From: Hericium rajendrae
Taxonomy: Eukaryota > Basidiomycota > Agaricomycetes > Russulales > Hericiaceae
Reading direction: 5' to 3'
DNA: 64,000 bases
Assembly (NCBI GenBank): GCA_033439255.1
Contig: CM065878.1
Span: forward strand, 620,001 to 684,000
A model generated the notes under the pieces. It worked only from the letters and a program-made list of their open reading frames with translations, searched no databases and had not been told where the DNA came from. Positions 6,906-54,680 of the stretch are shown in pieces. Positions within the stretch are counted from its first letter, which is position 1. Each line of letters begins with the position of its first letter. Made by a program: the position numbers and the translations under genes.

Positions 6906-7147
6906 CAGCACTGAAACAACCAATAAAATAAAAACAAACATACATACAATGTACCAGTATCACTCTTCTAGCCTTCTCTTACACCCTTCTAACCTGAAAA
7001 GAGATGAGAACAAAAGAATAACAGACTTACAATAAAACAAGAGAGAGAGAAGTAAGAGAGTGAGAGAGTGAGAGAGAAGAGACTTAGAAAGAGTGGCAAA
7101 AATGATGCGCTGCTGGCAAATCCTGAGGCCAAACAACACCAAAGGCA

Positions 7148-7181
7148 GAAACCAGATTGCCATATTTGGCAATCTGGTTTC
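7148..7181. repeat. Perfect hairpin, 15-bp stem, in the left transposon copy
   Basis: GAAACCAGATTGCCA is followed after 4 bases by its exact reverse complement. A near-perfect equivalent lies in the right copy at about 14351-14388, and a weaker related hairpin lies about 130-140 bp further in on each side (7289-7330 and 14215-14255). Confidence 0.85.
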
Positions 7182-15216: not shown

Positions 15217-15350
15217 ATGCTATTCATTTGATCCCAAAGTTTGGTCCAGTAGCTCCTAGAGAGTGGAATAGTAGCAATGTACTAGACCTATGTAAAACCT
15301 TTTATGTTAACAGTTTTACAGATAGACATACTTATATTACAGTTTACTAA

Positions 15351-19369: not shown

Positions 19370-21515
19370 TCGGGCCTCCAGTTTCCTCAGCCCAAGCCCA
19401 CCAAAGCCAGGCCCAAGCCCCGGGCTTCAGGCCCGGCCCGAGCCCGCAAAACACTAGCCACACGCCGAGCCAGAGACCTACCGAGCCACTGACCGAGCCA
19501 GAGACCTAGCCACACGCCGAGCCACCTAGTCGCACCCCGAGCCACGAGTGCGGCTCGGGGTGCGACGACTATGGCTCGGGGTGCGGCTAGGTCTCTGGCT
19601 CGGTCAGTGCTGGGCTATTTGAGCCCATCATCCTATCTACTATGCAAAATTGAGCCACTACTAGCTGACACTGAGCTGCACAACCCAATCCACCCACTGA
19701 AACCACATACCAAGCCACAGAACAGTCAGCAGGCACTAAAGCTAGCCACAGACCGAGCCAGAGACCAAGCCACACCCCAAGCCATGGCTGGCTCGGTGGC
19801 TCGGTGTGGCTCGGTGGCTCACTGGGCCTTTTTTTTTTTGGCTCGTCTGTGGCTCGGCAGTTCAGTGTAGCTGCACCGAGCCATATCGAGCCAGCATTGG
19901 CATACCACCTTCCTTTTTGAGCAATATTTTTACCAACCCATTCTTTTTGTTCTCTCAAATATTACCCAGCTGAGGAGCAGCTCGGTCCTTGACCGAGCCA
20001 AACCAAATCAACATCAAACTATATTTCCAAATTTGGAAGTTTATTTTCAGTAGCTCGGTGGCTTTGCATGGGCCAGAGCCTCACCGAGCCAAAAGAGCCA
20101 ATGCCAATTACCAACCACATATTGAGCCAAGTGGAGCCATGTAGAGCCAGCACTGTGTTAGCCAGCCGCACCCCGAGCCACACTGAGCCAGACACCTAGC
20201 CATAGCTCGAGCCACACCCTAAGCCCACCAAGTGAGGTACTCGGCTCTTTTGGCTCGAGCCACCGAGCCGAGCCACCGAGCCACTGAAAATAAATTTCCA
20301 AATTTGGAAATATAGTTTAGTGTTGGTTCGGTCTGGCTCGGTGAGCCATTGAGCCAAGGACCGAGCCACCGAGCCAAGAACTGAGCCAAGGACCGAGCTA
20401 CTCCTCAGCTGGATCAGTGGATCAGTGACTCGGTGGCTCACTGAGCCAGACTGAATCAACACTAAACTATATGTCCAAATTTGGAAATTTATTTTCAGTG
20501 GCTCGGTGGCTCGGCTCGGTGGCTCGGTGAGCCACCGAGCCAAAAGAGCCGAGTACCTCACTTGGTGGGCTTAGGGTGTGGCTCGAGCTATGGCTAGGTG
20601 TCTGGCTCAGTGTGGCTCGGGGGTGCGGCTGGCTAACACAGTGCTGGCTCTACATGGCTCCACTTGGCTCAATATGTGGTTGGTAATTGGCATTGGCTCT
20701 TTTGGCTCGGTGAGGCTCTGGCCCATGCAAAGCCACCGAGCTACTGAAAATAAACTTCCAAATTTGGAAATATAGTTTGATGTTGATTTGGTTTGGCTCG
20801 GTCAAGGACCGAGCTGCTCCTCAGCTGGGTAATATTTGAGAGAACAAAAAAGAATGGGTTGGTAAAAATATTGCTCAAAAAGGAAGGTGGTATGCCAATG
20901 CTGGCTCGATATGGCTCGGTGCAGCTACACTGAACTGCCGAGCCACAGACGAGCCAAAAAAAAAAGGCCCAGTGAGCCACCGAGCCACACCGAGCCACCG
21001 AGCCAGCCGTGGCTTGGGGTGTGGCTTGGTCTCTGGCTCGGTCTGTGGCTAGCTTTAGTGCCTGCTGACTGTTCTGTGGCTTGGTATGTGGTTTCAGTGG
21101 GTGGATTGGGTTGTGCAGCTCAGTGTCAGCTAGTAGTGGCTCAATTTTGCATAGTAGATAGGATGATGGGCTCAAATAGCCCAGCACTGACCGAGCCAGA
21201 GACCTAGCCGCACCCCGAGCCATAGTCGTCGCACCCCGAGCCGCACTCGTGGCTCGGGGTGCGACTAGGTCTCTGGCTCGGCGTGTGGCTAGGTCTCTGG
21301 CTCGGTCAGTGGCTCGGTAGCTCGATAAGCCGCACCGAGCCATGTCGAGCCGCCGAGCCATTGAAAACTGGATTTCCAAATCTGGAAATCAGATTTCACC
21401 AGGCAGACTCGGGGTGTGTCGGTCGTCTCTGGCTAGCTTAGTACTGGCACTATGTGGCTTGGTATGTGATATTCAGTGGTATTGGCTCACGTGTCTGGCT
21501 CGGTGCAGCTTGGAG
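19370..21515. repeat. GGCTCGG-rich giant palindrome, copy 1
   Basis: The stretch is saturated with GGCTCGG and its complement. About 19480-20395 is inverted at about 20400-21335, so the block is a near-perfect palindrome centred near 20,397; the unit includes the markers CCAAATTTGG (twice) and a poly-T/poly-A run. Smaller foldbacks made from GCACCCCGAGCC and GGCTCGGGGTGC punctuate it at 19529-19566 and 21227-21268. The right edge (about 21510) runs into the helicase gene. All reading frames are repeats of Ser-Val-Ala-Arg or similar and are not genes. The second copy is at 36160-38370. Confidence 0.85.
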
Positions 21516-23156
21516 ATGCTGTCGTCCTCCCTGGGGTCCAACGACGTAGCTGTATTGATAACGGCGCTTTCAGGTGAGTCTGTTCGAACGTCAATCTTCG
21601 CATAAATCTCCGTAGTGAAGGAGCGCATACCACCTAGATTTCCTCCCGCCTGTCTTTGGACTCTTTGGATTTCGAACTGCACACGTTCTGACTCGACTAC
21701 ATCTTGTGCGACCTCTCGGCACTCCTCGTTTGTGACTGGCCCGCGCCCGATAACGTCGACATCCACCCCACCTGCCACAATATCCCGGTCCCCGGTAGAT
21801 GCTGATTGCTCATTGTCCTCTTCATTTACCTGTGCCGATCTTGCTGAGCTTGCAGGAACAGGCACATTTCCCGGATCGAGAAGCCGTGAGTCAAGTGGGT
21901 CGCGCTTTGCATACTCCAGCGCCGCCTCGATTTCCGTCTTCTTCACATATAAGATTGCCTCTCCCTGCATCCCTGGAGCACGCGCTGGCCGCCCTGCGCT
22001 CTGGACGATTGATGCTGCGCTTGCTGGGGCCGGAAACAGGATAACGCTGGCGATATCAGGTACGTCAAGCCCCACCTCCCAGACTGCTGCAGCCACGAAT
22101 ATCGCGGTCGTGCGCTCATTTCCTGTTTCCCCTAATGCTTGTAGCCCCTCCTTTTGCACTCCGGGCAGTTCATGGAATGCGCGTGACGAATGAGCGTGTA
22201 TCCAGAGCTTTGCAGGCGGCTTGGCAGTAGTCCCCGAAGATATATGGCAATCTGGTGGCCTGTCTCGATGGTATCGCTGTAGACAATATGCTTCGGGACA
22301 TCAGAGGCAGAGGCCAGATCGCATGGAACAAGCCAATCGAGGTCATGGAATCCGAAGCCGCTACAGGTATATTGTATAGTGCGGAAGATGAAGTCGACAT
22401 TGTGACGCTGATAGTCTCTTTTGTCCAGAAGAAATGTGTCTTCACGATAACCAAGGCGCTGTAGGATCCTGTTCATTTGCTGGCCTTTCTCGATGGTGGC
22501 TGACATTGCGACAAAGGTCAGATGCTCGGGGCCGCGGGAGCGCATGGTCAAAATTTCTGCGTAGGCTTTACGAAAGTCAGTACCCCAGTGATCAACAAGG
22601 TGTGTTTCATCAATGACCAAGACACCCCAGCATTGTCGAAAGTATGAATCATTGATGAGTGTGCCATACTCGCATGTCTTGAGCATCTCGGGAGACAATG
22701 CAACAACCTGGTATTGCCCATCCCTGGTCTCGTTCCACAGGCTGCGGTTTTTCTTCTTTGCTACCTCAATTTCTTCGGCATTGATCACAACAGACGTAAG
22801 TCCTCTGCGTTTGAGGCTAGAAACCTGAACATAAACTGATTAGTATCTAAATCTCGTTGGGCATGCAAACTTACCATGTTGTCTTCGAGTGCATTTGTGG
22901 GCTCTACAACAATGGGAATCATTTCCTTGCGTACTAAGGCCGGGATGTAGATGAGCGCTGATTTTCCGTCGCCTGTCGCAGATACACAGAAGACATCCTG
23001 TCTGTTTAGGATGCATGCGGAGTCATAGACTTGAAACTCGTGAGGTTCAAAAGAGAGGTATGGTTGAATGAGTGTCTTGATATTACTGAGACCGGCTGGT
23101 GAGGTCCAGTCATATGCTTGCCTTCGTGTCCATTCGAAGGCAGGAGTTTTAGACAT
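21473..23156 (-). pseudogene. RecQ-like DNA helicase, damaged and 3' truncated
   Basis: Start ATG at 23156; intron 22874-22825 (50 bp, phase 0). Superfamily 2 motifs are visible in order: Q-motif-like FEPHEFQVYD, Walker A SATGDGKSAL, VVEPTNALEDNMV, SSLKRRGLTSVVIN, Walker B VLVIDETHLVDHWG (DETH rather than DEAH), SATIEKG (motif III), KHIVYSDTIETG, GLDVPDI and GRPARAPGMQGEAI (motif VI). A frame change near 22145, between NCPE and VQKEGLQAL, is either a one-base indel or an unrecognised tiny intron. The C-terminus fades into the GGCTCGG block at about 21510. Related RecQ-like genes are numerous in Agaricomycetes and look element-associated; whether this one was a host gene is uncertain. Confidence 0.7.
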
Positions 23157-25367: not shown

Positions 25368-28009
25368 ATGTCCACCTCCTCCACTCACGACGAATCCCTC
25401 CCATCTCTCCTGAAACGAATATTCCTTCAAAATTATTTCCATTATGAAGCCTGGCGTCGCATCGCATTTCGTGCGCCACCGACCAGCGATGGCCTATCGC
25501 CATCCGCAAGCGTAGTCAAATATGAACACAGCTCTTTCCCACTTGACATCAATCATGATGACAAGGTATCTTCTCAGCCCCAGTCCCTCCCACTCACCCC
25601 TATTCACTGTGTCTTCTCAGTGGCAGATGCCTTGGCATGAGTACCAGCATGTCTCATCCAATGTCTACATGATCTCCCCTCAATTCAAGTAAGCTAATTA
25701 CCCCACCAATGCCTCTCTTCTTCCCTGACTGTCCTTGCACCCATTCCCACCAGCATCTTCGATTTAGACGAAGACCACTGGGGTTTGCTTTCTGTCGTGG
25801 AACGAGACGGTGAGCTTCGTCTTTCCGTTTGACCGCGCTCACCTTCCCTCATTCCTGCAGCCCATATCATCACCCTCCAGACTGCTGCGAATGTCCTCCT
25901 CATCTGCGTGCAGCAAGGTAGGCCGACGACAACGACAAGTATTGACTCTGCTGTAACTCTGCCATGGAGGCTTGAAAACACTGAAGACGTTGTGGGGCTC
26001 CTCGAGTTGTATGCCAAACGGTGCGTGTAGATCCTTCCTTCTCATTTTTGCCCTATTTTGTCCTGGTTCCTTACCTATCATCCTCCTCTTCAATGACCAG
26101 AGATCTGGGATCGTGGCCCCAACTTCTCCGACATGACATTCAGTGCCTCATCCAAAACAGGACATGCAGAACGGCCGGCAAAATAGCAAGAGAACCCGCT
26201 ATCCCTGTCCTAAAGACCAGACATTCAAAAAAGCCGATGCTCACCCTCCAAGCCTCAACTCATTATTATTGTGATTCTTTATTCCCTTCTCCTCTTTGGT
26301 ATCCTTTTCATCAGTCCCCACAGGTGATTTCACCGCAAAAAACTTCTCCCCGTAAGGCCTGCTTCCCACCCTGCCCATCGGTCCCCTTGACCTCATCTTC
26401 TCTCTGCTTGTCTCTATCTGTCTGTCTGTCTGTCTGACTCTCTCATTCCCTCTTCCCTCCCTCAGCAATCGGTGCTGGCATAAGGGCCCTTGCACTTGGT
26501 TTGGATGTCTATGTTTCAGGGATCGCCTACACTGCAATTCAGACTGCAGATGTTCCCAAAACTGTGAGCACTTGATCTGCCCTTTCTGTTCTGATCATTC
26601 CTGATAATGTGAGAGGTATCCGGCAATGGCAAGGATGCAGCTGTCAGCCCACTTCCGAAGGGACTGCATGTCTTCTTGATGGAAAGGAATGTGTTTGCAT
26701 TCAGCAAGGACGCCAGTGCGAGGCTGGCATCTGCCACTGCAGGTAGTACTCTCCTACCCCAACTCCTCTCTTTTCTCTTATTATTACCTGTCGTGCAGTG
26801 GATGTGGGAATGACAACTGTCTCACCAAGATGAGCAAGCTATCGTACAACATTTCGAGAGGGCCAGCTTACGCAGACTGCGGCTTTGGTGCCACCGCCCT
26901 CAAGCCCATTCAGGCTGGTGAAATCATCGATGGCAAGTCACCATTGTCCCAACCCAGGTCTGGTTCTAGCTCTGACACCATCCTCCTAGAGTATGTGGGT
27001 GATGTGGTCAAGAAAGGCTCCCAGCAGGAGGAAGCCCGCCAGTCAGTCTGCCTGCTCTGCCTGCCCTGCCGTCTATGGACTCATGTTGACCCTCCCTCAT
27101 CTGCCAGTCGCTATCAAATGTTGCTCAACAGGTACTATGTGTTCGATTTGAACAAAGACTGGGTCATCGATGCGACCTTCCGCGGCAACAAGAGCCGGTT
27201 CATTAACCACTCATCTGCGCCCAATTGTGCTGCCAGCGGTACTTACATCTTTCTCCATCTCCCACACCCTTGCTTTCTCACTCATCCTCCAGTGGTATAC
27301 ATCCATGGCCAGCATCATATTGTTATCAGGGCCAGTAGGTGATGTCCGTTTGTGTGTTTTGTGATCCCCTGCATCTCATGGAATCTGCTTGTCAGTCAAG
27401 GACATCCCGCATTACAAAGACCTGTACCTCAATTACGGTGCAGGTATCCCTCTTCATTCAAGTCCTCAGCCTGACGTCTACTTTGCATCGCCTGACAACG
27501 GTTCAGGTTTCTTGATGGCACTCTTGAAGAACCCAATGTCAGCTGGGGTGGTCCAAAGCCCCACCACAACAAAGCATCGCTCCGAGTCTTCCTCCTTGCC
27601 TCCGGGTAAGGTTCGAAAAATGATCAATTGGAAGGGGCCCCAATCGAACAAAGCTGCAGTGGTGGACATCCAGCCCATGAGAGTTCTGACCACAAGCCAT
27701 GGAGGACATGGATCCAGCAGGGCTGGGGAAGAAGACCACTTGGACACAAATGGAAGTGAAACACCACTCTCTGTGTCCTCCTCCTCCTGCCTCCAGGAAG
27801 GGTGTGCTACAACTCAAGATGATGACACAAAAGATGGGGCACATGAAGACACATTGCTCAGCCTGGGGCTGCACAAGGTGGAACCGATCATCATTGAGAC
27901 AGAATCTGACTTGGAAGAGTGGCCAGTAGAGGTTGAACTCGAGAACTATGAGCTCTACAGCTCTGATGCTATTGAAGACTCAGAGGATGCCCCAGTCTGC
28001 CTAAGGTAA
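25368..28009 (+). CDS. SET-domain histone methyltransferase, E(z)/KMT6-like
   Basis: The first in-frame ATG is at 25368 (MSTSSTHDESLPSLL). A multi-exon gene: exon 1 ends at 25565, the second starts WQMPWHEYQH at 25621, and later exons carry IFDLDEDHWGLLSVV. A cysteine-rich CXC-type domain (about 26630-26860) reads CSCQPTSEGTACLLDGKECV, then RQCEAGICHC and CGNDNC. The SET domain follows: GFGATALKPIQAGEIIDEYVG, YYVFDLNKDWVIDATFRGNK, RFINHSSAPNC and YLNYG. The CXC-SET order, the VDAT-like motif and RFINHS match Enhancer of zeste, the PRC2 catalytic subunit that methylates H3K27. An intron at 26933-26989 (GC donor) splits EIID/EYVGD and is 57 bp, so retention would keep the frame. The C-terminal tail is acidic and unrecognised. 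It sits alone among transposons. Confidence 0.72.
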
Positions 28010-29654
28010 TATGTATGGAGATGAACCCAGGTCTGGAGCTTGATGCTCTTCTACCCAATTTGTCCTGTGAATGAAATGATGAAGAATGGTGAAGGAAGGT
28101 TCAATCTGTGGGTCATGGGAGTGGGATGAGTGGCTGAGGCTCATTATGTGATGATATCAGATATGAACATACGATGCAAATGGCAGTTATAAATGCTAGC
28201 TCTGACCCTTGCTTCAGATGGCCTCAAGCATAAAAATAAAAATTCATAAATGTTTTTTCCCCCTGCTGCATATGCTTTGTACTACTGTACTTTTTTGACC
28301 ATAAGTTCATCATGCATCTCATGTGTGCTTGAACCTAACTTACCTGTTGATTTGTCCCATGTCATGCTGTAAGTATGAACATAGAAACATGACAGAATTT
28401 CCTAAACAGATTTCCATACAGAACAGAGCATTTACAGCATTCTAGTGGTTGGTGAAGTCTGCATACTTCTTGTTGGTGAGCTTCCTCTGCTTTCCGTGCC
28501 TCAAATGCTCTGGATTGGGGACAACAATTTCATCAGGTTCCAGTTCATCTGCCAAACCTGGCACCCGATCAGCATCAACAGCAAGTGACAACATTTGTGC
28601 CATCAGAATGCTAGGTTCGAGTGCACTGTGATCACCACCAATGATATGAAATATGGAGTCCGCGGACCATTTGCAACGTGATGCGCTGAACCACAGCGCT
28701 GCCGCAGCAATGATGTCTCAACGTGTTTTGAACAATGGCGCGCAGTCGAACATATGTCCGACTCCCATGTCCTAGCGGCATATCTGAACCGTGACCTCAT
28801 TGAACAACTTATGGGGTCACAAATCACAAATTGTGAGTGAACTTGTGGTCGAAAAAGTACAGTACTCCTCAAAATTGTGGACTTTCATGTCCAAAATTTG
28901 CATATAAGTACATTCGTACTAGAACTCTCAATATACAAAATATTGGAGGCAAAGCGTATGTTTTTTCGCAGCAGGAAAGTGCTATTACCGCTAATTGCTC
29001 CGAGGAGTGGGTCATGCCTGTAAGTATGGTGACTCGAGTCTTAGCGGACTTCATGCAAAATAGGACATAAGATATAAATTGAATGCATGATAATAACATA
29101 GGTCTAGAAGAGCGCTGGAAGTGTGTACATTGCCAATCATTTGATCAGGTGCTGCCACTAATATTTCGGGGTCTCCAGTTGCCCGAGATCTGGATTTGTG
29201 GTAGCCATAAGGTGTGTCCCTCCGATCGCATAAAGCCATAAATATCAGACCGGTGGTTTTCATGATTGAGGTGGCAGCACAAAATCAGTTTGCGCAGCCC
29301 AAGAATGTCCATGCTAAGTATATTCCACAGATGCCATTCGCAGAGATAAAGATCAAAAAGCTCATCATTTGCAAGAATTGAACTATGTACCAAGCAATCT
29401 AAAACACTATAACCCACTACTCCATAATGCTTTGTCAATACTAGCTCACATGAGCTTCAGCCCGCAATGGGTGGTTAAGAAAGTACGAGAAGATGTACCT
29501 GTTCATATATGCTCATCTCATCTGTGTTCCACGACGCACTGTCTGACAGCTGCAGAATCATCACATATTCTTCGAAGATGTTTGAGGATGCTTGAGGATG
29601 CTTGAATTAACTTGAGAAGTACCGCCGAGTCTGTGCCGTCACAGTGCGAAGGCA
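28010..29654. other. Intergenic DNA with a small gene fragment
   Basis: Mostly non-coding. On the minus strand 28640-28445 reads SALEPSILMAQMLSLAVDADR and ends in ADFTNH before a stop, which looks like the last exon of a lost gene. On the plus strand 28700-28840 contains FEQWRAVEHMSDSHVLAAYLN, also fragmentary. Neither is recognised. Left host flank of the 5.8-kb transposon. Confidence 0.35.
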
Positions 29655-29662
29655 CAAGCATG
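29655..29662. repeat. Left 8-bp target site duplication
   Basis: CAAGCATG directly precedes the left inverted repeat and is repeated exactly at 35485-35492. Confidence 0.9.
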
Positions 29663-29682
29663 CAAGGGGGGCTCGGGATGTT
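29663..29682 (+). repeat. Left 20-bp terminal inverted repeat
   Basis: Exact inverse of 35465-35484. A G-rich stretch (29690-29715) lies just inside and has no clear mirror at the right end. Confidence 0.9.
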
Positions 29683-29923
29683 AACCCGCGACCGGGGGGT
29701 AGGGGGTTAGTTGGGGTCATAGTGTCCTTACGAAAAAATATGACAGCATCATGTAAACCCTAACATTAGGTCAGACCTTCCATATCAGGACATGTGAACC
29801 TCATGTTGCGACGAGTGAAATCCCAGAAAACATCTCGAAACATCATAAAAGAAAAGAGACAAGCTCAAAATACAGGTCAAATGGATTTCTATTATCCTGA
29901 GCATTATATTGAACTGATTATAG

Positions 29924-32900
29924 ATGGATATTGTTGTCGACTCCGATGGCTTTGTACTATGTCCGGATTGCAAGACGAAGATATCTGTTGGCAACGGGGG
30001 GATCAACAACTTCACAAAGACACACCTGAGAACAAAGAAATGTCTCAGCAATCAGGCAAAGCAGAAGAAGCTGCAGGCATCCAGCCGAGGCCAGCAAGCT
30101 CTCACCTCCTTCTTCACCACGAAAACCAGCATCGCGCAGCCAATTGCGTCGTCTGTATCAGCTCCTCGGCCAGTTTTATCTCGCATAGGTGCCCTGCCAT
30201 CTCATGAAGCACCTCCTACAATTGTCCGCCCTCGCTCAAACACACCCTGCAGCCATGCGGAGAAGCTCTTACATCAGTTGAAGACCGCAATCACGCACCT
30301 ATCTTCTATCGTCCCCGAAGCAACTGATCGCGATCTGATCACCGCGTTCTCTGGCGATCCACCGATTCTTCCTCAGGAAGATGCATGGGAATTTCTTGAT
30401 CCCATGCTCAACCGACTGGTGGGCTATGGAACAACTGTTAAAGAGGCTGCACTCCAGCTACGTTCCGGCGAACAGGGCTTGACGGGGCTGTATCGGTACA
30501 TTGAACACTTCATTGTGGTGAACGGAATCGAGAGCACATTATTGGAGGGAAAGGTGGAAATGATCGTCGCAGCTATTAAGCTTCTGTGAGTACGTTCAGC
30601 GATATATCAAGGCTGCGCGCTGATGACGAAAGAAGATTATCTGAACAGAACTTACCATCTAGTCTTGGGGCCATCGAACCATCTAGCGACATGGCGCCTC
30701 CATCACCATCTCCAGCGACAGAAGCACCGAGTGCTGCTGGTCTGCCTGTGTCAAATGCGAGCTCAGATTCTGACTCTGAAGTCATCCTTGTCAAGGTCAT
30801 ACCACCATCACAAAAGTGCGAAGGATATCAACTTGCCTTCCCATCAGACCAGACAGCGCTTGGAAGCTATCCCTTTATGCTGCATGATATGAGAAATCTG
30901 CCATGGGACCTTGAGTTGCGAGCTGGCATGCTGACGCTTCGGGCGCGTGCTTGCTCGGGGAAAGCCACATCTTACCGGAAGTGTTCCGCTTGCAAAAAGC
31001 TAGAAGACAACTCAATATTAGTTGGCATTCAAGAAAGAATACTAAACGGGGTGCACGAAAATGCACCATTTGCATTCTATGGATCTGGTGGCCTTACGGT
31101 CCTTCTGCGCCGCAAAAACGCCGTCATTGATCAGTATCGCCTTCGACGCCTCAACGAGGCTCGAAAACTTGTTGGGCGGGACACTGTAATTGATCAGCAC
31201 AAGCAAATGATCCTTGCCTTAGCGAGTAACAAGATTCCACGAATAGATCGTGTCCTTCGCGCAGGCATGAATCGAAATCTTGGTATGCATGGGATATTAG
31301 AACTCATCAAGAAGGCAGCAAATGGCACATACCATCCCAAAAGCTTCGACGAGGAGGACGATCTGCAAGCGGTCCTTCTGCTTAGACTGGGTGGAGCTCG
31401 GATAGCGAACATTGCTCACCACATCTTCGGGACACCTGCCGCTAACACCATCCGTCAACGACCATCCGTCCCTCTTCTCCTTCCATCTCCAGGGAAACCG
31501 GGTCTTCAAGAGCTTCAAAAGAATGTGGAGTCGAGCTTTGGGAGCTTGAAGGACTCAGACGCAATGAAAATTGCGATCGTTTTTCATGGCGTCGTGATGT
31601 TTGATGAGATTGCTACGGAGAAGAGGCCGAGATGGGATGATAAGAGCAATCAGTTCTTAGGAATCTGTCGCGAACATGGACACAAGACAACACTCACGTT
31701 CGAAACACCTGACGATCTGAAGGTATTGTTTGACGACTTGGATCGTGGTGACGTGCATCTGGCTTCAGAGGTGCGTCGTCGTTATTACCTCATTCAAGCA
31801 ATGCGCGTAATTCTCACGTCCAACTCGCTTTAGGCCACAGTCGGCGCTCTTGGCTTATTGGCCCCTTCATCACGCCTATATAGTGCTCGGCCGGTATTGA
31901 TTTCAGGTTCATGCAAGCAAGAGAAAGCTCAGCAGCATGCAAAGGTAATACAGACGACGATTGACGCAGTCAATAGCAAGCGCGACCTAACACGAACGCG
32001 CATCGTCTCGCTGGCTTCCGATGGCGAAGCTAGACGTGGAAAGGCACTTATCCAATTGACTTTTCAACGTGAGCTATCACCGTCGTCTTCCATCTACAAC
32101 ATGCTTTCTCCACTTGCGCTAATGGACCTACACGTTGGAGAAGACGACATCACAGCCGACAAGGATTACAAGCATGTCTTCAAGCGGCTTCGAAACGCGC
32201 TCTTGCGCGAGAAAGGCATTCTTGTCGATGGTCTCTGGCTCACCCCTCAGATCATTCAGGCTCAGCTTGCCGATGCTGGATTCTCATCAAGACACATTCA
32301 ATCGCTTTTCAATCCTGAAGATAAGCAAGATGTTTTGCTCGCGTACAATATGCTGAAGGACCTGTGGTCTCTGTCGGCCGAGACAAAGGATACTCGTCCA
32401 GCTTTTGTCGCAGCGCGCAGAGCTCTGCGGATATTTGGCCTCCTCTGCTACTGTTTGATCTATCCTTATATCTGCATTGACATGTCCCTCGTTGAGCAGC
32501 TCGAGCTTCTCAGTACCGCCGCACACTTAACGCTTGTCCTCTACACCTGGAATAATGCCCGCAGCCACTTCCTTCCCACCATGCTCTACATTGACATCAT
32601 GACCATGATCAAAAATGTCTATTTTTGTGTTGCGAAAGCCAAAGCAGACCTCCCAGACAGTGATTTCTTTATTATTTTATTAGGTACAGACCGCCTAGAG
32701 AGCTTATTCGGCATACTTCGAACCATGGTCGGGAATGATGCGAACCTGGATATCCTACAGCTCGCCCTTCGCCTAACTGGGACGACCGAAGTTGCTAACA
32801 TCTTCGCCCGGCATCCCGAATGGGATAAGTCCCCCCGCCGACTTCATCTTCCTGTTGCCGCCAAAGACTCGACGATTCTACCAGACCAGGCAGATCATAT

Positions 32901-35299
32901 AAGCCCTCGAATGTGGCGGGCAGATATCAGTGTTAAAAGTGCCTCTCTCGCGAGTTGTTGGAAGCAAGGACGGCGCCTGATCGAGGACTTACATCACTTC
33001 TGCGCAGACGTCCTTGACGATATTGACAACATCGAGGATGCCTCCATTTTCGCACCTGAAGGCACATTAATTTTCGATATACCTCTCGCTGAAGACGATA
33101 CGGAAGACCTTGAGGTCCCGCTAGAGTGTCTGCCTGCGGTAGATGCAAGCATGGCAAATCCGACTGAGGGCATGCAGGAGCTCGAGGAAATGGCAGCAGA
33201 CGGCGACGCACCAGATCTTGATGGAGATGGCGGTCATAGTAAGCTATTCCCAAGATCTGTTGATATCAACGGTGATGGTACCATGGTCCACAAAGCTCGA
33301 GCGCTTTCTAGCCGGTTCAAGTACAATAAGACTACAAGTTCGACTGATCGACTGCGTCGGGTGCAACAAGAGGGTCGATACAAGTCGGTGACATCGAGCG
33401 CGCGCCCTCCGTACCTCGTTGACGGCAACGGCACCGGCGGACTGGACGCTCACGGTCCATTACTCCTTATTCATGATCCTATTGCCTCACTTCTCTCATG
33501 TGATCAGAAGCTCTTTCTATGCATCGGTGAAGTCAACGCTATCCATGTCGACTCAAGGCCTGTTGATGAAATCCCTTTGGAGCTTCTCTCGGAGAAGACT
33601 GTCATCATCTCGTATCAACTTGTCAGTTTGACGGCGACAGACTCGGACGACGACCCCTCTCTAAAGCACGATTGGCGCTCTGCACGATCTCTGATGCTCA
33701 CATTCAAGGTTCCGGGCACACTCGTGCAGCCAGTTAATCCTCCCCTCGATTGTCATATTCCCGGACGTCCTCGAATGCTCTTTGAAAGCGGAATTCTGAT
33801 GGCCATGGCATCTAGTCTCCATGACCGACTGACTATGAACCACATCAAATTGATTCCGCGTACCAAAACGGCCGCGGAGTTTCCGTATCGTGAGCGATCA
33901 GGTATGTGATCTCCGATCTATTCATATTTCTAATCGACTGACGGAAGTATTTTACTAGGGAAGGCTTGCTTCATCACCGAAAGGAGTGATGAGGTGCGCG
34001 ACTTAGTTCCAAATTCATGCCCGAACTGCTTGTCCTCTATCGCCTTCGAATCCGGCCAACGGGCCCTCGAGCATATGGGCAGTCACGTCCTTCATGATGT
34101 CACTGTTGACCGTGCTTTGGAGCCATGTGGTTTATGCCTGCGCTCGTTCTCACTATGCCAGATCTTCCTGCAACAAGCGAGAGGGCGGAATGGAAATCTA
34201 TCTATCAACCGAAAGAAAAGTACATGTCAAAACATGGTCAGTTTTTCGTATGGAGTGGCCTCAACTTCGTCGAAAACCTCACCGTGCTCAAACGTGCCTC
34301 TGCGCTGTCCGCTGTGCTCTCAATCTGACCCTGCCGTCTGGAAGTACAACATGAGCATGCATTTTCAACGTGCTCACCCGAATGTACCTCTCAAGTCGTA
34401 TGAGAGTCTGTGGGCTATTATAATCTCCGAGGTACATGAAATGAAGCGAATCTGGCGGGACCGCTACAAGCAAGCAAAAAAGCGCAACAGGAATGCGGGC
34501 GCACCTCTGATAGTATCGGAAGCTCATAGCTCACGCTTAGTATTGACGTAGGTGACTTTTAAAGGGTCCTGGATAACAATCTGCTAACTGATATACAAGT
34601 CCGAACAGTGAAGAGGTGAACAGCGACACGGAAGATGATCTGAGTGCAGCTTCTGGAGATGGTGGGATAAGTGAGGCTGCAAGTGAAACCGACGAAGGAT
34701 ACGATGACTTCGGCACAACTGAATGGCATGGCCATGGACAGGACGAAGCCGAAGACCGAGAGGAGGAATATCTGCAAGAAGAGGATGCTCACCTCGAAGA
34801 CGCCGAGCGACCGTTGACAGAGACCACGGATGACGTTGATGGGACCATCACTGACGTTATTGGAGGTAATGCAGCAGCAGAAACTGGTTCCACATACCAG
34901 GAAATCGACAACGCTCTCGCTTCCATGCTTCCAACTCCTCTCGACAGCAGAATTCAAGACACAGGTATCCCAGCATCTCTGTCGCCCAAAGCGCACGCCG
35001 ACGCGGCAACCGCAAGCAATCGCCCACAGCGCAAACGGAAAGCGACCGACTTGCGAGACGTGAAAGTATGCTTTTGTGGCGAACGTGTCCTGGAAGAGGA
35101 AGAAGGTGCCGTGAAGTGCATGAAGGCGAGCTGCGAAACACAATGGGTGAGTACCAAGACTAGGAAAACAATTGGCATATTACTTACTGATCCTTGATTT
35201 AAGTATCACTTGGAATGTGTTGATCTTGATCTACCGCATATGAAATGGATCTGCAATGTTTGTAGAGAGGGGCAGAAGGGGAAGCGACGCAGAGCGTAG
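29924..35299 (+). CDS. 1,689-aa transposase-like protein with C2HC finger, P-element-like core and PHD finger
   Basis: Six exons (29924-30585, 30663-31770, 31834-33901, 33959-34547, 34600-35146, 35204-35299) total 5070 nt and keep phase at every junction; all donors are GT and all acceptors AG. Domains: a C2HC finger at residues 13-40 (CPDC ... H ... C); a low-complexity linker; a large helical region; an RNase H-like core inferred from VSLASDG (D about 653), then DKDYKHVFKRLRNALL (about 701), then GTDRLESLFGILRTMVGND (E about 879). The last two echo the D-x-H-L-x-K-x-x-R-N-N-L and E-x-F-F/L-x-x-x-R motifs of P-element/THAP9 enzymes. C-terminal to that are Cys/His clusters (CPNC ... H ... C, CPLC ... 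H) and a PHD finger at about 1631-1678 (VCFCGE ... CMKASCETQW/YHLEC ... WICNVC). It probably cuts and pastes the surrounding element. The catalytic triad is inference. Confidence 0.8.
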
Positions 35300-35464
35300 T
35301 GAAAAGAGTTAGCGATCGTGTCGCAGGTCGCATTAGAGTGCGGGGACAATGCGGGGAAACACATCTTATCTTATCTTTCCATATATGGTAATGTGCCTGA
35401 TTACGTACCTACCTAGGTCGACCCTCGGGGCCTTATAGAAAAAAAGTACCATATGTTTTCCTAC

Positions 35465-35484
35465 AACATCCCGAGCCCCCCTTG
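35465..35484 (-). repeat. Right 20-bp terminal inverted repeat
   Basis: Exact inverse of the left end; followed directly by the duplicated CAAGCATG at 35485-35492. Confidence 0.9.
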
Positions 35485-35492
35485 CAAGCATG

Positions 35493-36159
35493 CAATCCTG
35501 GGTTTCACGAGTAGAGATCAGAGGCTGCTCTGAAATAAGGTGCAATGATTCATGGCTCACACCAATCTGTATGGGTACACGCCATCGGAGGGACTTGAGA
35601 TTTCACACGATACAAATCTGAGGCACCCACAGATCTAGTCTTCGGTTATCGCTGATCGCAAATATTGATGGGTTTATCCATTCCCATGTCCTCCTGTGTA
35701 GGTGGATTACAGACATGTGCTAGAGGAGAGTGAGAAGGAGGAGAGAAAGGCAGAGGAGTCTGAAAACAACGTGCAGCGTGAGTCGCATGGCATTATAGGC
35801 TGTCAGTCACGGATGCCACGCACCTAACATATCTCGAACGTTGGCATGTACTAAGGCACAAAAAGTGGGATGTACTAAGGCATGAAAAGTGGGATGATAA
35901 CATGGTGTGGTATAGAGGAGTGCATATCACACACAAAAAGCTACTTTTTGGTGGAGAGTGGGCATGGGACGGTAAGTCAACGGTAAGTGACAGTTGCGGG
36001 CATGAGGATGGGAGCGCCACAACCACAGCCGGAAAGGGCAAGGCCGAGGTCTACACCGAGGTGCAGACGCACGGAGGCATCTTGTGAGATTGATACAGGA
36101 GTCAGTAGTTGTGAAAATATGCTAGGAGCTGCAAATGTCCATGATCAGAGGAGAAACAG
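35493..36159. other. Intergenic DNA right of the transposon
   Basis: No convincing gene. A short direct repeat (TGTACTAAGGCA, with AAAAGTGGGATG) occurs twice at about 35847-35895. The GGCTCGG array begins at about 36160. Confidence 0.4.
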
Positions 36160-38370
36160 AGACTGCATACCGAGCCATACCGAGCCACTGAGCCACACCT
36201 TAGTCCTGGCTCCATTGTGGCTCGATATGGCTCAGAGCAGCTACTGAGGTACTGAGCGCTGAGCTGCCGAGCAGTATTTCCAGTCGATTGTCAATGTTGG
36301 CTCGGTATGGCTCGGTGCAGCTACACTGAACTGCCGAGCCACAGACGAGCCAAAAAAAAAAGGCCCAGTGAGCCACCGAGCCACACCGAGCCACCGAGCC
36401 AGCCGTGGCTTGGGGTGCGGCTTGGTGCTTGGTCTCTGGCTCGGTCTGTGGCTAGCTTGCTTTAGTGCTGACTGTTTTGTGGCTTGGTATGTGGTTGTTT
36501 CAGTGGGTGATGGCTCGGTGTGGCTCAGTGTCAGCTAGTTGTGGCTCAATGGCCCAGTGTCACATTGAAATCTGATTTTCCAAATTTGGAAAATCTGGTT
36601 TTCAGTGGCTCGGTGGCTCGGTGGCTCGGTGTGGCTCGGTAGCTCGATCTCTGGCTAACCGCAGACACACCTCCAAGCTGCAGCAAGCCAGACACCTAGC
36701 TGCACTCCAAGCTGCACCGAGCCAGACACGTGAGCCAATACCACTGAATATCACATACCAAGCCACATAGTGCCAGTACTAAGCTAGCCAGAGACGACCG
36801 ACACACCCCGAGTCTGCCTGGTGAAATCTGATTTCCAGATTTGGAAATCCAGACTTCAATGGCTCGGCGGCTCGACATGGCTCGGTGCGGCTTATCGAGC
36901 TACCGAGCCACTGACCGAGCCAGAGACCTAGCCACACGCCGAGCCAGAGACCTACCGAGCCACTGACCGAGCCAGAGACCTAGCCACACGCCGAGCCAGA
37001 GACCCAGTCGTCGCACCCCGAGCCGCACTCGTGCGGCTCGTATGGCTCGGGGTGCGACTGGGTCTCTGGCTCGGCGTGTGGCTAGGTCTCTGGCTCGGTC
37101 AGTGCTGGGCTATTTGAGCCCATCATCCTATCTACTATGCAAAATTGAGCCACTACTAGCTGACACTGAGCTACACAACCCAACCCACCCACTGAAAACC
37201 ACATACCAAGCCACAGAACAGTCAGCAGGCACTAAAGCTAGCCACAGACCGAGCCAGAGACCAAGCCACACCCCAAGCCATGGCTGGCTCGGTGGCTCGG
37301 TGTGGCTCGGTGGCTCACTGGGCCTTTTTTTTTTTGGCTCGTCTGTGGCTCGGCAGTTCAGTGTAGCTGCACCGAGCCATATCGAGCCAGCATTGGCATA
37401 CCACCTTCCTTTTTGAGCAATATTTTTACCAACCCATTCTTTTTTGTTCTCTCAAATATTACCCAGCTGAGGAGCAGCTCGGTCCTTGACCGAGCCAAAC
37501 CAAATCAACATCAAACTATATTTCCAAATTTGGAAGTTTATTTTCAGTAGCTCGGTGGCTTTGCATGGGCCAGAGCCTCACCGAGCCAAAAGAGCCAATG
37601 CCAATTACCAACCACATATTGAGCCAAGTGGAGCCATGTAGAGCCAGCACTGTGTTAGCCAGCCGCACCCCCGAGCCACACTGAGCCAGACACCTAGCCA
37701 TAGCTCGAGCCACACCCTAAGCCCACCGTGACCAAGTGAGGTACTCGGCTCTTTTGGCTCGGTGGCTCACCGAGCCACCGAGCCGAGCCACCGAGCCACT
37801 GAAAATAAATTTCCAAATTTGGAAATATAGTTTAGTGTTGGTTCGGTCTGGCTCGGTGAGCCATTGAGCCAAGGACCGAGCCACCGAGCCAAGAACTGAG
37901 CCAAGGACCGAGCTACTCCTCAGCTGGATCAGTGGATCAGTGGCTCGGTGGCTCACTGAGCCAGACTGAATCAACACTAAACTATATGTCCAAATTTGGA
38001 AATTTATTTTCAGTGGCTCGGTGGCTCGGTGACTCGGTGGCTCGGTGACTCGGTGGCTCAGTGGCTTAGCTCAGTGGCTTGGTGGCTTGGCTCGGTGACT
38101 TGGTGGCTTGGCTCGGTGGCTCGGCTCGGTGGCTTGGTGGCTCATGACTCAAGCTACAGCTAGGTATCTGGCTCAGTACAGTGTGATGTCTAGCTCAGTG
38201 CAGCTAGGTGTCTGGCTTGATAACCTTGGCTAGGTGTTTGGCTCGGTGCAGCTCGGCATCTGGCTCAGTACGACTCAGTGTCTGGCTCGGTTGGCTTGGT
38301 GTGGCTCGGTGTCTGGCTCGGTGCAGCTCGGTGTCTGGCTCGATAACCTTGGCTAGGTGTTTGGCTCAAT
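36160..38370. repeat. GGCTCGG-rich inverted array, copy 2
   Basis: The same units as 19370-21515, arranged in another register. An inverted unit (about 36296-37015) meets a forward unit (about 37030-37960) at a foldback made of GCACCCCGAGCC and GGCTCGGGGTGC (37014-37065), and the start of a further inverted unit follows to about 38030. Beyond this is a degenerate run of GGCTCGGTGACTCGG words (38030-38370). Sections such as 37085-37740 are nearly identical to 19600-20230. No coding content. Confidence 0.85.
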
Positions 38371-38592: not shown

Positions 38593-41500
38593 CTATTTGA
38601 CTGTATAAATAGAGAGTCCAAGGCCAAAGTATTTGGAGGTCAACTTTTCAAGGTGAGATGAAAATTTATCAGAAGAGACTCTTTCTCCATGTTGCATGTA
38701 GAGAAATTCAGCATAGTTGTCTTGCACTTGAGAGCCCCAGAGAATTCCTGCAAATAAAATCTCCAGTGGTCTGATATGGATCAGATAATACTGATTTAAC
38801 TTGGCAAGTGCTGTTGGAAGGAGCATCGGAACAAAGCTGTCCATACCACGAATATTGGTGCCTTTATGATATTGCATTATGAACCACATATCACCATGTG
38901 CCAGATAAACATTGCGTTGTCGAAGGCCATTGCGAATGCGAACATCCATAAATTCTGTTCCTCTTGGTGGTTGAGTAGGCAAAATGTGGTTCAAGACAGA
39001 TAGCATCTGATTGATCTCTGCAGTGTGAGCCATGAATTGTAGAAGTGCAGTATGATTCCAAGCCAAGCCATCATCAGAAACATGACCAATAGCAAATTGT
39101 TTGCCAGCCTCCAATTTCTCCAATAACTCCATGGGCTTAGTAGTGAAGGTTGCATTGTTTAGCCATGAGTATCCAGCATAGTCGTTGGACATATCGTCAA
39201 CAAGATTAGAGGGAATCTGATAATTAAGAGGAATGTTATCAGAAAGTTGGTACATCTTGTGTTCAACATCCTGCATGAGATGTTTCAAGCCTGAGCGTAG
39301 CTTGGCAATCTCTAGTGTGTGGCCTTTGAAGCTGACTTCTGTCATGTTACGACTCCATGTAATCTTGGGAGGTGCAGCTTGTCCCTTCACCAGAGCAGTA
39401 GTATAATGCTGATAGTCTTGAATAGCAGCATAGGTAGAGACAGCTTGCTCAGATAGAAAGAGCTGACAGTAGTGATGACATGCTCTACAAAAAAAATATT
39501 TAGATTATTAACTTTAATAATAACTTATTACTTACCCCATAGCTTTGTCCTCAAAGTCACCTTTCTTCAAATCTATTTGAAACAGCATAACTGCCTTGAT
39601 AAGATAGATCCAGACTGACAAGTGAGTGGCAAAAAGATTGGGACCAATAAAAGATCCATCTTCACGAAGACTGTCTACTGCTAAGAAGCACGTAAGGGGA
39701 TCAAGCCACACCTCATCACGATCATTGCCTGTGGAAGAAAAAAGAGCAAAGACCAAATTGTGAACAGCAAGAATGGTGGCTTCATCTTCATGGACATCAA
39801 GCTTGAGAAGAAATTGGTGTGCCAAAGTGATCTGACTAGGAGTCAAAGGAAGCTCATAGGTAGATTCATGGGTACCATCAACATTGCGGAGAACCATGGC
39901 CAAAAAGCGAGTTAAGAATAGAACAGATCTGTTGTGAGTATCAGGACGATCATATCCCTTCCATGTAGCGCCAGAAGATTCTCTGTAAGATATTATTAGT
40001 AAAATACTTATGATAATAATAAATGCAAACATACGATGGATATTGCTCTAATGCTTTGAGGATAAGCCGAGCTATATTGTGAGATTTATTGACTATAGAA
40101 TGCAGATACTTGTTGACAACTTGTTTGAGATGACCCAGTCTTATATTGAATCTTGATGGATGACCACCCTGACCTGGAGCAAAATATTCAGGCAAAGAAC
40201 CTAAATCCAAAAGCAGTGTCCGCTTTGAACGATCTTGATAGTAGTCTTTAAGATGAATATGCCAGTTGGTAACCTGTAAAAGAGGAGGAATGTCCCTTTC
40301 AGTGCTTGGAGCAGCTGCATTGTGTTTCAAGCTAGAGATGTGCTGAGGATAGAGAGTGGTGATAAACATATCATAGGCAGAGGTGATGGGAGGAACAGAA
40401 AGAGTGGGATCTACAGCAAAATACTGGCGTGCATTGGCTGTGACACTAGACCAGTAGAAAAATGTCTGAATGGAGGCTTCAACATCTTTTTTATCAAAAG
40501 CTGTGTGAGTACTAGAGTGCACTTCTCTGGAATGCCTAGATACAAGATCAAAGCTGAGAGAAACATATGAGCACTGAGGGCATTTGAAACCAGATTCGAT
40601 CTTCAATCCTTCAACAGGCCTCTTGTCCAATGGAGCAGGAACATTGAGATTACAATAAAGACCAAAGCGTTGAATAGCCTCCTGTAAAAATTTATCAATG
40701 TCAAGATTCTTGTGACCATGGGTTTGCAAATGTTTTTTCAAGTCCTGAGGAAGAGATGCTTTTTTACAAGTAACACAGATGATGAGTTTGTGAACTTTAT
40801 TGATGACACAACCTAAAGCATCTAAAGTATTGTTGCTGAAAAGCTGAGATGTAGAGGTGTCTGGTTTTATTTCATCACCTACAAAAATATCAATCATTTG
40901 AAATTGTACTTGATTAAAAAAATATAAATTCTTACTGAGATGCAAAGTCTGAGTCAGTTTGGCATCAACTAGATCAAGAGACATATTCATAGCATCATCA
41001 CTAGACAATGACTTGTGATCATCTTGCATGATAGTATCATCTTTTGGTTCTGGAGATGGTATACGTGACACATGCTCTGAGAGTTGACGAGAGGTTGACT
41101 GAGAGACCAAAGGGGTATGAGAAGCAGAAGATTGAGGAGTAACATTCCTAGTTGAGACTCCACCATATGGACCAGCTGATGGATGAGTTCTGATAGAACG
41201 ACTTGGACCGAGACCAGAATTATGATGCTCAGCCTCATGTGATCTGACATGATTGTACATATCACGGGAGTTGTCTGTAGTATGAGGGCAAAGCCAGCAA
41301 GTGAATAATCTTGTAGCTTCATCACGTTGAAGTGTATATTTGATGCCTGTATTAATAAATATATTAAAATATATTAATTAATAATAATATTTGAAAAGTT
41401 ACCCTTAAATGTAATAATAGTAGACATTGTGGTGACTGCAGAGTGATGTGCATTGTATGTTCCAACATTGCTAAACTTTTTGCTACAATGATCACACTTG

Positions 41501-42099: not shown

Positions 42100-42480
42100 T
42101 CTCAAATAGAGTTCCGATGTTTTTTCCCACGCCTTAGCACAGGCACAATTTTCGACTTTTTGCTTATGTAAAAAGTGTGCAGATACTTTTTATATAAGCA
42201 TATCGTGAGAAGAAAATCAAAGTTGTAGAGAAAATTTTTCCGAACAAGGCTGCATTGGTCTCGTATACACAGCCATCATTGTTATTACATAAAATGCAAA
42301 ATACTCAGTCAGACCCGAGTTTGAAGAGACTTAGCCATGATTTTCGAAATTTTCTGCTTATGTAAAAGGTGTGCAGATACTTCTTACATAAGCATACTGT
42401 GAGAAGAAAATCAAAATTGTACAGAAAATTTTTCTGAACAAGACTGTATTAGTCTCATATGCACAGCATCTGTTGTTATA
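42100..42480. repeat. Direct repeats with a GCTTATGTAAAAAG hairpin
   Basis: A module of about 130 bp (TTTTCGA, GCTTATGTAAAA hairpin, GAGAAGAAAATCAAAG, TCTCGTATACACAGCC-like) occurs at about 42150-42275, 42340-42475, 43645-43775 and partly at 43835-43970. Each copy contains GCTTATGTAAAA and TTTTACATAAGC-like arms that can pair. Non-coding and AT-rich. Confidence 0.7.
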
Positions 42481-42499
42481 ACATAAAATGTAAAATACT

Positions 42500-43310
42500 T
42501 GGCCAAATTTAATTGATAAATTTTAGTATTTGGCTCATATCTTGCAAGGTACTCTGAGGTATTCTTAGCAAATGATACTCCTATAGTCGGAATAATAATG
42601 GCCACTACCATGCAAAATTTCAGAAGGTACAGACAGGTCCTTGGTATAGTTTCAAGACATGACCGAGCTTAACTGATGCATTTTAGTATTTGGCTCATAT
42701 CTTGCGAGGTACTCCGAGGTATCCTTAGCAAATGACACTTCCATAGTCGGAATAATAATGGCCACCACCACGCAAATTTTCAGAAGGTACAGACAGGTCC
42801 TTGATATAGTTTCAAGACATGACCGAGCTTAACTGATGCATTTTAGTATTTGGCTCATATCTTGCGAGGTACTCCGAGGTATCCTTAGCAAATGACACTC
42901 CCATGGTCGGAATAATAATGGCCACCACCATGCAAATTTTCAGAAGGTACAGACAGGTCCTTGGTATAGTTTCAAGACATGACCGAGCTTAACTGATGCA
43001 TTTTAGTATTTGGCTCATATCTTGCGAGGTACTCCGAGGTATCCTTAGCAAATGACACTCCCATGGTCGGAATAATAATGGCCACCACCACGCAAATTTT
43101 CAGAAGGTACAGATAGGTCCTTGATATAGTTTCAAGACATGACCGAGCTTAACTGATGCATTTTAGTATTTGGCTCATATCTTGCGAGGTACTCCGAGGT
43201 ATCCTTAGCAAATAATACTCCCATGGTCGGAATAATAATGACCACCACCATGCAAAATTTCAGAAGGTACAGACAGGTCCTTGGTATAGTTCTGAGATCT
43301 GATGCAGCCC
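42500..43310 (+). repeat. 160-bp tandem repeat, about five units
   Basis: The marker TTTTAGTATTTGGCTCATAT recurs at about 42520, 42680, 42840, 43000 and 43160, exactly 160 bp apart. Middle units differ at only a few positions; the outermost are more diverged. No open frame spans the units. Confidence 0.9.
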
Positions 43311-43601
43311 AACTAAGCCTAACTTATTACCCTTATTTCTCTACAACCACTTTGAATTATCCTTAGCAGCCACTTGTTCCATGTTAAGATAGATGATGTG
43401 TATTATCATGTTAAATTTCAGCCAAAACGATATAGATTTGAGCTAGCAAACATGCATCGTGCTCAGTTTTGCAGATCGGGGGATAGAAAAAGGCAAATAT
43501 CTTGAGAACGGCTCCGAGGTATTCTTAGCTCTCTTCAGATCTGAGATCGTGCATCAATACCTCAGAGATCCTGAAAGTTTCGGAGAAATCGGAGAGGGTC
43601 A

Positions 43602-43623
43602 CCGTAATGAGGCCTCATTACGG
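43602..43623. repeat. Perfect 22-bp palindrome, first of a related pair
   Basis: CCGTAATGAGG followed by its exact complement. A sister palindrome with the same outer six bases lies at 44735-44756, in the same context (GGTCACCG before, GAGCAAATAGCTTGG after). Confidence 0.9.
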
Positions 43624-43984
43624 CAGAGCAAATAGCTTGGTTTTCGAGATTTTCTGCTTATGTAAGAAGTATCTGCACACCTTTTACATAAGCATACCGT
43701 AAGAAGAAAATCAAAGTTGTAGAGAAAAATTTTCTGAACAAGACTGCATTCGTCTCGTATGCACAGCCTTAGTCACTATGGCATAAAATGCAAAATACTC
43801 GGCCAAACCTGAGTTTGAATAGACTTAGCCATGGTTTTCGAGATTTTTTGCTTATGTAAGAAGTATCTGCACACCTATTATATAAGCAAATTGTAAAAAA
43901 GACTTAGCCACAATTTTCGAGATTTTAGCTTATGTAAAAAGTATGCAGATACCTTTTACATAAGCATATTGATCAAGATAAGAT

Positions 43985-44700
43985 TTGTAGGTCAAGGACC
44001 ACCAAAACTCAAATATCTCCAGAATGAGCTTGAGCAACTTTTAGCTCTCTTCAGATCTGGGATGCTGTATAAATTGCTCAAATACTCACAAATTTTTAGA
44101 GAAATCAGAGCTAATTCATGTATTGACATAGAAACAAAGATCGAGGACCACTAAAACTCAAATATCTCAAGAATGAGCTTGAGCAACTCTTAGCTCTCTT
44201 CACATCTGGGATTGGACATAGATTGCTCAAATATCTGCAAAGTTTCAGAGAAATTGGAGCTGATTCATAAAGTAAGTAGCTTAGATAGTCTTTTAAACTT
44301 GTTTGCTATATATCTCCACAACAAGTTTGAGCAACTCTATGAATCTACCACTCCCAAAATCAGACAAATAGAGGCTATCGTCATGCCAAGTCTCAGCCAA
44401 AAGAGTAAGGAACGTGGCCCAGTTCACTCCAGTTTACTTCAGCCTAACAACCAAACTTAACACCCCTATATCTTTACAACTGCTTTGAGCAACTCTTTGA
44501 AACCACCACTTCCTTGATCAGACAGATGAGGACTAGCAACATGCAAAATTACAGCCCAAACGAGCCACATTTGAGCTGAGGAAGATCAGTCGAGCTGAGG
44601 TTTACAGGTTGAGGACCACAAAAACTCGAATATCTCAAGAATGAGCTTGAGCAACTCTTAGCTTTCTTCAGATCTGGGATCGAGGATTTATTGCTCAGGT
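43985..44700 (+). repeat. Repeated CAAATATCTC/GAATGAGCTTGAGCAACT modules
   Basis: The module with AATGAGCTTGAGCAACT and TAGCTCTCTTCAGATCTGGG occurs at about 44020, 44170 and 44640, interspersed with related CTTTGAGCAACTCT units. Non-coding. Confidence 0.7.
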
Positions 44701-44734
44701 TTTCTGAAATTTTCAGAGAAATCGGAGGTGGTCA

Positions 44735-44756
44735 CCGTAACGTGGCCACGTTACGG
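44735..44756. repeat. Perfect 22-bp palindrome, second of a related pair
   Basis: CCGTAACGTGG followed by its exact complement. Compared with 43602-43623 the inner bases have changed on both sides in a matched way, so symmetry is kept although the sequence differs. Confidence 0.9.
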
Positions 44757-44796
44757 CTGAGCAAATAGCTTGGGTCCTCCATTTTGACTAATCTCC

Positions 44797-45372: not shown

Positions 45373-45826
45373 GATTCGATCTGCAGGAGTTTTTTAGCTG
45401 GTATGATACATAAAGTGTGCTCTAGGGCTTACCTGGCAATGTCAACCGATGATGGTGTCTCTTCCGACCGCATCTCAAGCGAAGTATCCAATGCTTCGTA
45501 AGTTGTGGTCCTGTGAGAGACAGATTACAACGTGATTGACTGTCATAGAGAGTTCGTCGCACCTGGACCCTGCTGACCTTTCCGAGGCCTCTGTCGTGAA
45601 CGGCGATGTATGCTCTATGCTGTGACTACGACATGAGGGTAACGGCGAACTCAGAGTACCCGCGTACCTCAGAGATGCTCTGCCCTGATCACCGGGTTAG
45701 GATCATATCCTCTCGTCTTTCTCTTCCGTTCATCGTTCCAAGCAAACGACATAGTGAAGATATATATCGCGAAACAACGAATGTATATATATCGGAAACA
45801 ATGTATGTGTATAATACTTATCTGTG

Positions 45827-54454: not shown

Positions 54455-54680
54455 GACTTTACTATGGCGAAGGAGCGTGCTTGATGTAACGAGTGTGGCG
54501 AAATGGTGGTAGAAGTGTCTGGCGTGCAGATGAGAGCGTTGAAGCACTCGAACTGGAAGCTTTCAAGTTGAGCGTTCAGTCGATGCTGACTGCGGGGATT
54601 GCCGAACACGCCTGCTGACGGTCAAGCAAGATATTCACTACGGTAGGACGGTTGTCGTACTTCAAGCTTCATGTCCCAGG

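Follow-up and report, generated by a model that had tools for sequence, protein, structure and literature searches.

A complete-looking DNA transposon of Hericium rajendrae encoding a putative P-like transposase with an ING-type PHD finger

Insects are the best-known hosts of P elements, as vertebrates are of THAP9, and the Drosophila P transposase has a length of 751 aa. A passage in a review describes the P superfamily as mostly confined to the genus Drosophila (PMC5791352). In excerpts of two papers on these enzymes, the distance between D303 and E531 of Drosophila P is given as 228 residues (PMC7776569) and that between D374 and E613 of THAP9 as 239, and the signature string of P contains a [C/D](2)H motif that follows the second D (PMC8230255). 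The N-terminal portion of the P/THAP9 catalytic domain is represented by the Pfam family TNP-like_RNaseH_N (PF21787). A P-like enzyme in a fungus, if true, would widen the range of P.

The window analysed here is the whole 64,000-nt stretch of DNA from the basidiomycete Hericium rajendrae. An element of 5,822 bp was delimited in it (29663-35484), of which a single copy was examined. We consider it likely that this element is an intact autonomous transposon of the cut-and-paste kind, with an enzyme that is a remote relative of the P-element/THAP9 group. Its features are listed in Table 1.

Table 1. Positions in the window of the element's ends, target site duplications and predicted exons; residue numbers refer to the predicted protein.
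Feature	Position	Strand	Details
Left target site duplication	29655..29662	.	CAAGCATG
Left 20-bp terminal inverted repeat	29663..29682	+	CAAGGGGGGCTCGGGATGTT
Exon 1	29924..30585	+	Start codon immediately follows an in-frame stop; BED-like C2HC pattern at 29960-30043 (residues 13-40)
Exon 2	30663..31770	+	Proposed first catalytic Asp, D535, at 31603-31605, covered by the sub-threshold PF21787 match
Possible HTH region in exon 2	residues ~455-490	+	By eye only
Exon 3	31834..33901	+	Proposed D653 at 32020-32022 (by eye), D701xxH704 at 32164-32175, E879 at 32698-32700
Insertion in exon 3	between D653 and E879	+	P-like in length
Exon 4	33959..34547	+	Two C2H2 patterns: residues 1300-1322 (34018-34086) and 1396-1419 (34306-34377)
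Exon 5	34600..35146	+	Acidic linker, then start of PHD finger (from 35069)
Exon 6	35204..35299	+	Remainder of ING-type PHD finger (to 35263), stop codon
Right 20-bp terminal inverted repeat	35465..35484	-	Inverted copy of left end
Right target site duplication	35485..35492	.	CAAGCATG

The terminal inverted repeats are identical at 20 of 20 bases; the identity stops there, with no inward extension. Both ends are bordered by CAAGCATG, a perfect 8-bp repeat. The insertion is real, complete-looking and probably recent, its recency being suggested by the perfect ends together with the perfect duplication. With up to three mismatches allowed, the terminal repeat occurs at two sites in the 64-kb window, which are the two ends of the element (chance expectation 0.01), and neither the element DNA nor its protein had a match elsewhere in the window at E<=1. 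No subterminal repeats of at least 9 bp, as in P elements, were listed at 29640-29930, and the right subterminal region (35290-35510) has one 10-bp palindrome and no direct repeat. Clustered G runs (GGGGGG, GGG, GGGGGG, GGGGG, GGGG), read by eye as a possible G-quadruplex, are present in the left end at 29663-29735.

The six exons join into 5,070 nt, or 1,690 codons with a sole, terminal stop, and predict a protein of 1,689 aa. All five introns are of the GT-AG type and 52-77 nt long. A CTNAY branch-like motif occurs at least once in each, with the nearest copy 12-21 nt from the 3' end; this lends modest support, since such a motif is contained in some 32% of all 40-nt windows of the element anyway. 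Exon 3 is open over 689 codons, against a longest open run of 212 in 500 mononucleotide shuffles. The protein has a C2HC pattern near its N-terminus, which we take to resemble BED fingers, and a C4HC3 pattern at residues 1633-1678 near its C-terminus. An earlier note on this DNA had described perfect 20-bp inverted ends, a perfect 8-bp duplication and a six-exon gene whose 5070 coding bases stay in phase, with an N-terminal C2HC finger and a C-terminal PHD finger. Each of these features was recovered here, both fingers by pattern, and the two C2H2 patterns of exon 4 come in addition to what it had described. The search with the 20-bp ends that it had proposed, run within the window, returned the element's own two ends and no further site.

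The relationship of the enzyme to P/THAP9 was examined with profiles and with a collinear motif test. In the Pfam scan of the full-length protein, a weak PHD-type match (E 1.9) appeared alone and the TNP-like RNase H was not listed. The core was scanned as eight pieces against 24,736 families, with four reversed pieces as control. The three core pieces containing VVMFDEIATEKRPRWDDKSNQFLGICREHG match TNP-like_RNaseH_N alone, over D535 (E 0.13, 0.065 and 0.084); the best score for this family, 14.0 bits, lies under the curated cut-off of 24.6 bits, so that the match by itself is a hint. The remaining five core pieces, which lack D535 and cover the second Asp, insertion and Glu regions among others, gave no Pfam family, and the four reversed pieces gave none either. 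Pfam presumably contains one or more further TNP-like models, and no second TNP-like family was listed in the scans of the core pieces.

In the collinear test, four segments of the Drosophila P transposase (around D230, D303, D339 and E531; sequence verified against PDB 6p5a) were used, and the best ordered ungapped chain was sought within residues 500-940. Shuffled sequences matched the chain score 2 times in 3000 with BLOSUM62 and 0 times in 3000 with BLOSUM45; for an earlier variant with nearly identical segments they did so 4 times in 2000 and once in 2000. A comparison with 229 overlapping chunks of translated ORFs, many of them not real genes, produced no score as high, the closest having 113 against 116 for the core and 146 against 157, and three other regions of the same protein gave background-like scores. 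The signal is carried by the E and D(2)H segments, as their scores were reached, each taken alone, by few shuffles (5 and 1 of 500 for E; 21 and 36 of 500 for D(2)H). The D1 segment (86 and 163 of 500) and the D2 segment (442 and 366 of 500) were not significant alone. The best placement of the D2 segment does not fall on D653, and this residue was therefore assigned by eye alignment. Pairwise alignment to Drosophila P was not significant, its gapped score being reached by 122 of 300 shuffles, and the single-comparison E values were 0.15 (best by blastp), 0.042 (phmmer) and 0.22 (hhalign). The gapped path aligns DYKHVFKRLRN...LTPQIIQ with DTPHLIKLVRN...LTKKTIQ and terminates by aligning the region around GTDRLESLFGILR with the region around NQDIVEHFFGSMR.

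The proposed core residues are, in order, D535, D653, D701xxH704 and E879. In the triad, D535 has the sub-threshold profile match as its basis, E879 the segment test and D653 the alignment by eye, and the D/D/E core is put forward as a proposal by similarity. With D653 so placed, the D2-E distance (D653-E879) is 226, close to that in P, whereas the D1-D2 distance (D535-D653), at 118, exceeds the 73 of P and the 70 of THAP9. The insertion between D653 and E879 has the length to be expected of the GTP-binding insertion domain of P and gave no profile match. No THAP family was listed in the Pfam scans of the whole protein or of its N-terminal piece, and two AlphaFold models built without relatives had a pLDDT of 35, too low to be informative on an RNase H fold. 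The P/THAP9-like core suggested in the earlier note is supported by the match at D535 together with the collinear test. The spacing that it likened to P/THAP9 agrees in the D2-E distance and differs in the D1-D2 distance, and the P signature's [C/D](2)H motif is present as D701xxH704. The profile comparison that it had proposed, carried out as Pfam scans, gave the TNP-like match at D535, under the cut-off, with hAT and KDZ families unlisted. Because the profile cut-off is not reached, no THAP family is matched and the first spacing differs, the element is filed as P-like and not as a member of P; it would act like a P element without being assigned to the P superfamily.

There is a small chance that the element belongs to an already named fungal superfamily, most likely an Academ lineage (Academ-1, Academ-2 and Academ-H in RepeatMasker), that its resemblance to P at a few motifs is due to chance, and that the true duplication is the 4-bp AGCA with ends beginning TGCAAGG. 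Academ target duplications are 3-4 bp long. The flanking octamer CAAGCATG and its reverse complement share 6 of 8 positions (read by eye), and this near-palindrome permits an alternative parse with 22-bp ends (TGCAAGG...) and a 4-bp AGCA duplication. That parse requires a chance match of four more flanking bases, which makes the 8-bp duplication the simpler and better parse; judged from one copy, the 4-bp parse is less likely. The P-like signal, moreover, exceeds background in the chain tests. AcademH was set aside because the full-length Pfam scan of the protein listed no helicase family. In an excerpt of a study that compares two strains of the bolete Phlebopus portentosus, one strain has 98 annotated Academ-2 copies and the second has none (PMC12411881).

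It is very unlikely that the element is a divergent hAT element, which would share with it the length of the 8-bp duplication, the CAAGG ends, which fit the hAT end rule YARNG, and the BED-like N-terminal C2HC pattern. A chain of Hermes segments scored at background against the protein (2128 and 2195 shuffles out of 3000 score as high), and no hAT family, dimerization or core, was listed when the whole protein and the core pieces were scanned against Pfam. The P segments against Hermes were at background as well (889 of 1000 and 907 of 1000), so the chain test is blind to kinship as remote as that between P and Hermes. P and hAT are not far apart, since a classification of RNase H-like enzymes, in the part seen here, groups P transposase and hAT families within a single clade (PMC3985635).

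An immobile, domesticated or silenced copy, in which an intact gene retains transposon ends by chance, would agree with the lack of a second copy within the window; we hold this to be highly improbable, given that the perfect ends and perfect duplication suggest a recent insertion. The element may be active, to judge from its intactness.

A KDZ element of the Dileera or Zisupton type is scarcely credible: no KDZ family, for which the Pfam library presumably contains a model, was listed either for the full-length protein or for the core pieces, a weak negative, since the same scans detect P only below the cut-off. In its favour, a Dileera element with an 8-bp duplication is mentioned in part of one paper (PMC12730594), and an extract of another puts KDZ and Plavaka together at about half of the DNA elements of the mushroom Marasmius oreades (PMC8290104). 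Other candidates were rejected: the window's own Plavaka gene is recognised by Pfam (E 3.8e-49) and the element's protein is not; DUF6589 was not listed in the full-length scan, nor was the term found in the open-licence literature; and for MULE/Rehavkus no MULE family was listed in the Pfam scans, the duplication is 8 bp and not 9 bp, and no minisatellite was found before the 3' end (35290-35510).

The Plavaka transposase gene just mentioned is at 11453-12817 and, like the short introns of genes in the window, suggests a mushroom-type fungus. It is flanked by long inverted arms (6166-8685 and 12929-15222) that are ~70-71% identical, and the interval of 6.1-15.2 kb may represent a single large element or two nested copies in opposite orientation. 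A ~2-kb repeat (19454-21515 and 36289-38048), in direct and inverted copies up to 95% identical, flanks the P-like transposon. Adjoining the first of these, two adjacent minus-strand ORFs at 21476-22839 have DEAD and Helicase_C matches, look RecQ-type by eye and could be part of a mobile element. A SET-domain ORF (26680-27339) lies upstream of the transposon. Further along are a minus-strand ORF with an OrsD-type zinc-finger match (39953-41377; Pfam E 2.8e-13), dense tandem arrays at 42141-44773, one of them with a period of ~160 bp, and a 2.2-kb inverted pair (45755-47969 and 54677-56868) that is 82.5% identical and contains long ORFs (385 and 435 aa) with no Pfam match at E 0.01.

Similar proteins are, in our impression, common in mushroom genomes. 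Searches with exon 3, the E region and the D1 region against IMG/VR contigs, and with the E and D1 regions against GTDB contigs, recovered no relative; seeds were exact 8-residue stretches, which detect close relatives only. The exact terminal repeat had no match in IMG/VR, and exon 3 found no relative among plasmids (tblastn) or in PDB (phmmer). These results are uninformative for fungi, as the collections cover viruses, prokaryotes, plasmids and solved structures. One IMG/VR match was dismissed as chance: its E value against the full-length protein was 0.015, the aligned region is interrupted by two stop codons, and the ORFs of its contig look bacterial or prophage-like by eye. No paper combining transposase, Agaricomycetes and PHD finger was found in the open-licence literature.

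By its sequence, the C-terminal finger is an ING-type PHD finger, which bears out and specifies the PHD finger of the earlier note. Its best PDB match is yeast PHO23 (E 4e-7), and the list of 29 PDB sequences at E<=0.1 is headed by 19 ING, YNG, PHO23 or png2 proteins. The Pfam PHD model scores 16.9 bits (E 0.0065), under its cut-off of 24.0. Besides the similarity to PHO23, the finger has in common with ING/PHO23/YNG fingers the C4HC3 pattern and the terminal WxCxxC. In ING-type PHD fingers two aromatics, Y and W, form a methyl-lysine cage. The aromatic preceding the first cysteine is Y in ING/PHO23/YNG proteins (YCYC/YCLC) and V in the element's finger, and the W is retained. Because V replaces a cage aromatic, the predicted binding strength, and even the target, may differ from those of ING proteins, in which the PHD finger binds H3K4me3 according to part of one paper (PMC9438315).

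For the preferred P-like reading, the following mechanism is proposed. The N-terminal C2HC and later C2H2 fingers would bind the element ends, and the P-like RNase H core would excise the element and join it at two points 8 bp apart, a presumed reaction that would leave the observed CAAGCATG on either side. The ING-type PHD finger would tether the enzyme to histone H3 tails, and this tethering could bias insertion or activity toward certain chromatin. The PHD finger may thus guide insertion through chromatin, which is a plausible and testable guess; a histone-reading finger fused to a transposase would make chromatin guidance of a DNA transposon testable on one protein. A bolder version, which we regard as unlikely, would make the element the founder of a fungal branch sister to P/THAP9, in which one polypeptide combines a P-like DDE core with an ING-type reader and aims insertion at methylated-H3K4 chromatin, a RAG1-RAG2-like solution reached independently.

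Compared with P/THAP9, the element shares the 8-bp duplication, the proposed D-D-D(2)H-E order, the D2-E distance (226 vs 228) and the sub-threshold TNP-like match at D535. It differs in lacking a THAP match, in its D1-D2 distance (118 vs 73), in its fungal host and in its C2HC, C2H2 and PHD fingers, and its protein is far longer than that of Drosophila P (1,689 vs 751 aa). With hAT (Hermes) it has the 8-bp duplication and the BED-like N-terminal finger pattern in common, without motif similarity above shuffles and with no dimerization domain listed in its protein. PHD-bearing transposases are already known, either in the enzyme itself, as in Rehavkus, or as a partner subunit, as in RAG2. Rehavkus, which is MULE-like, resembles the element in having a PHD finger inside a DNA transposase, and has a 9-bp duplication and a minisatellite before its 3' end, as described in part of one paper (PMC6446971); the element, in contrast, has an 8-bp duplication, no direct repeat at 35290-35510 and no MULE family in the Pfam scans. 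In RAG2, the sea-urchin RAG2-like protein included, a PHD finger that binds methylated H3K4 works with a DDE enzyme, according to an excerpt of another (PMC8355894). The PHD finger of RAG1/RAG2 is on a separate subunit, whereas that of the element is on the transposase itself, with histone binding predicted. Given the precedents of RAG2 and Rehavkus, a DDE core with a PHD finger is unusual yet not unheard of, and a P-like transposon with an ING-type PHD finger is worth a family-wide comparison.
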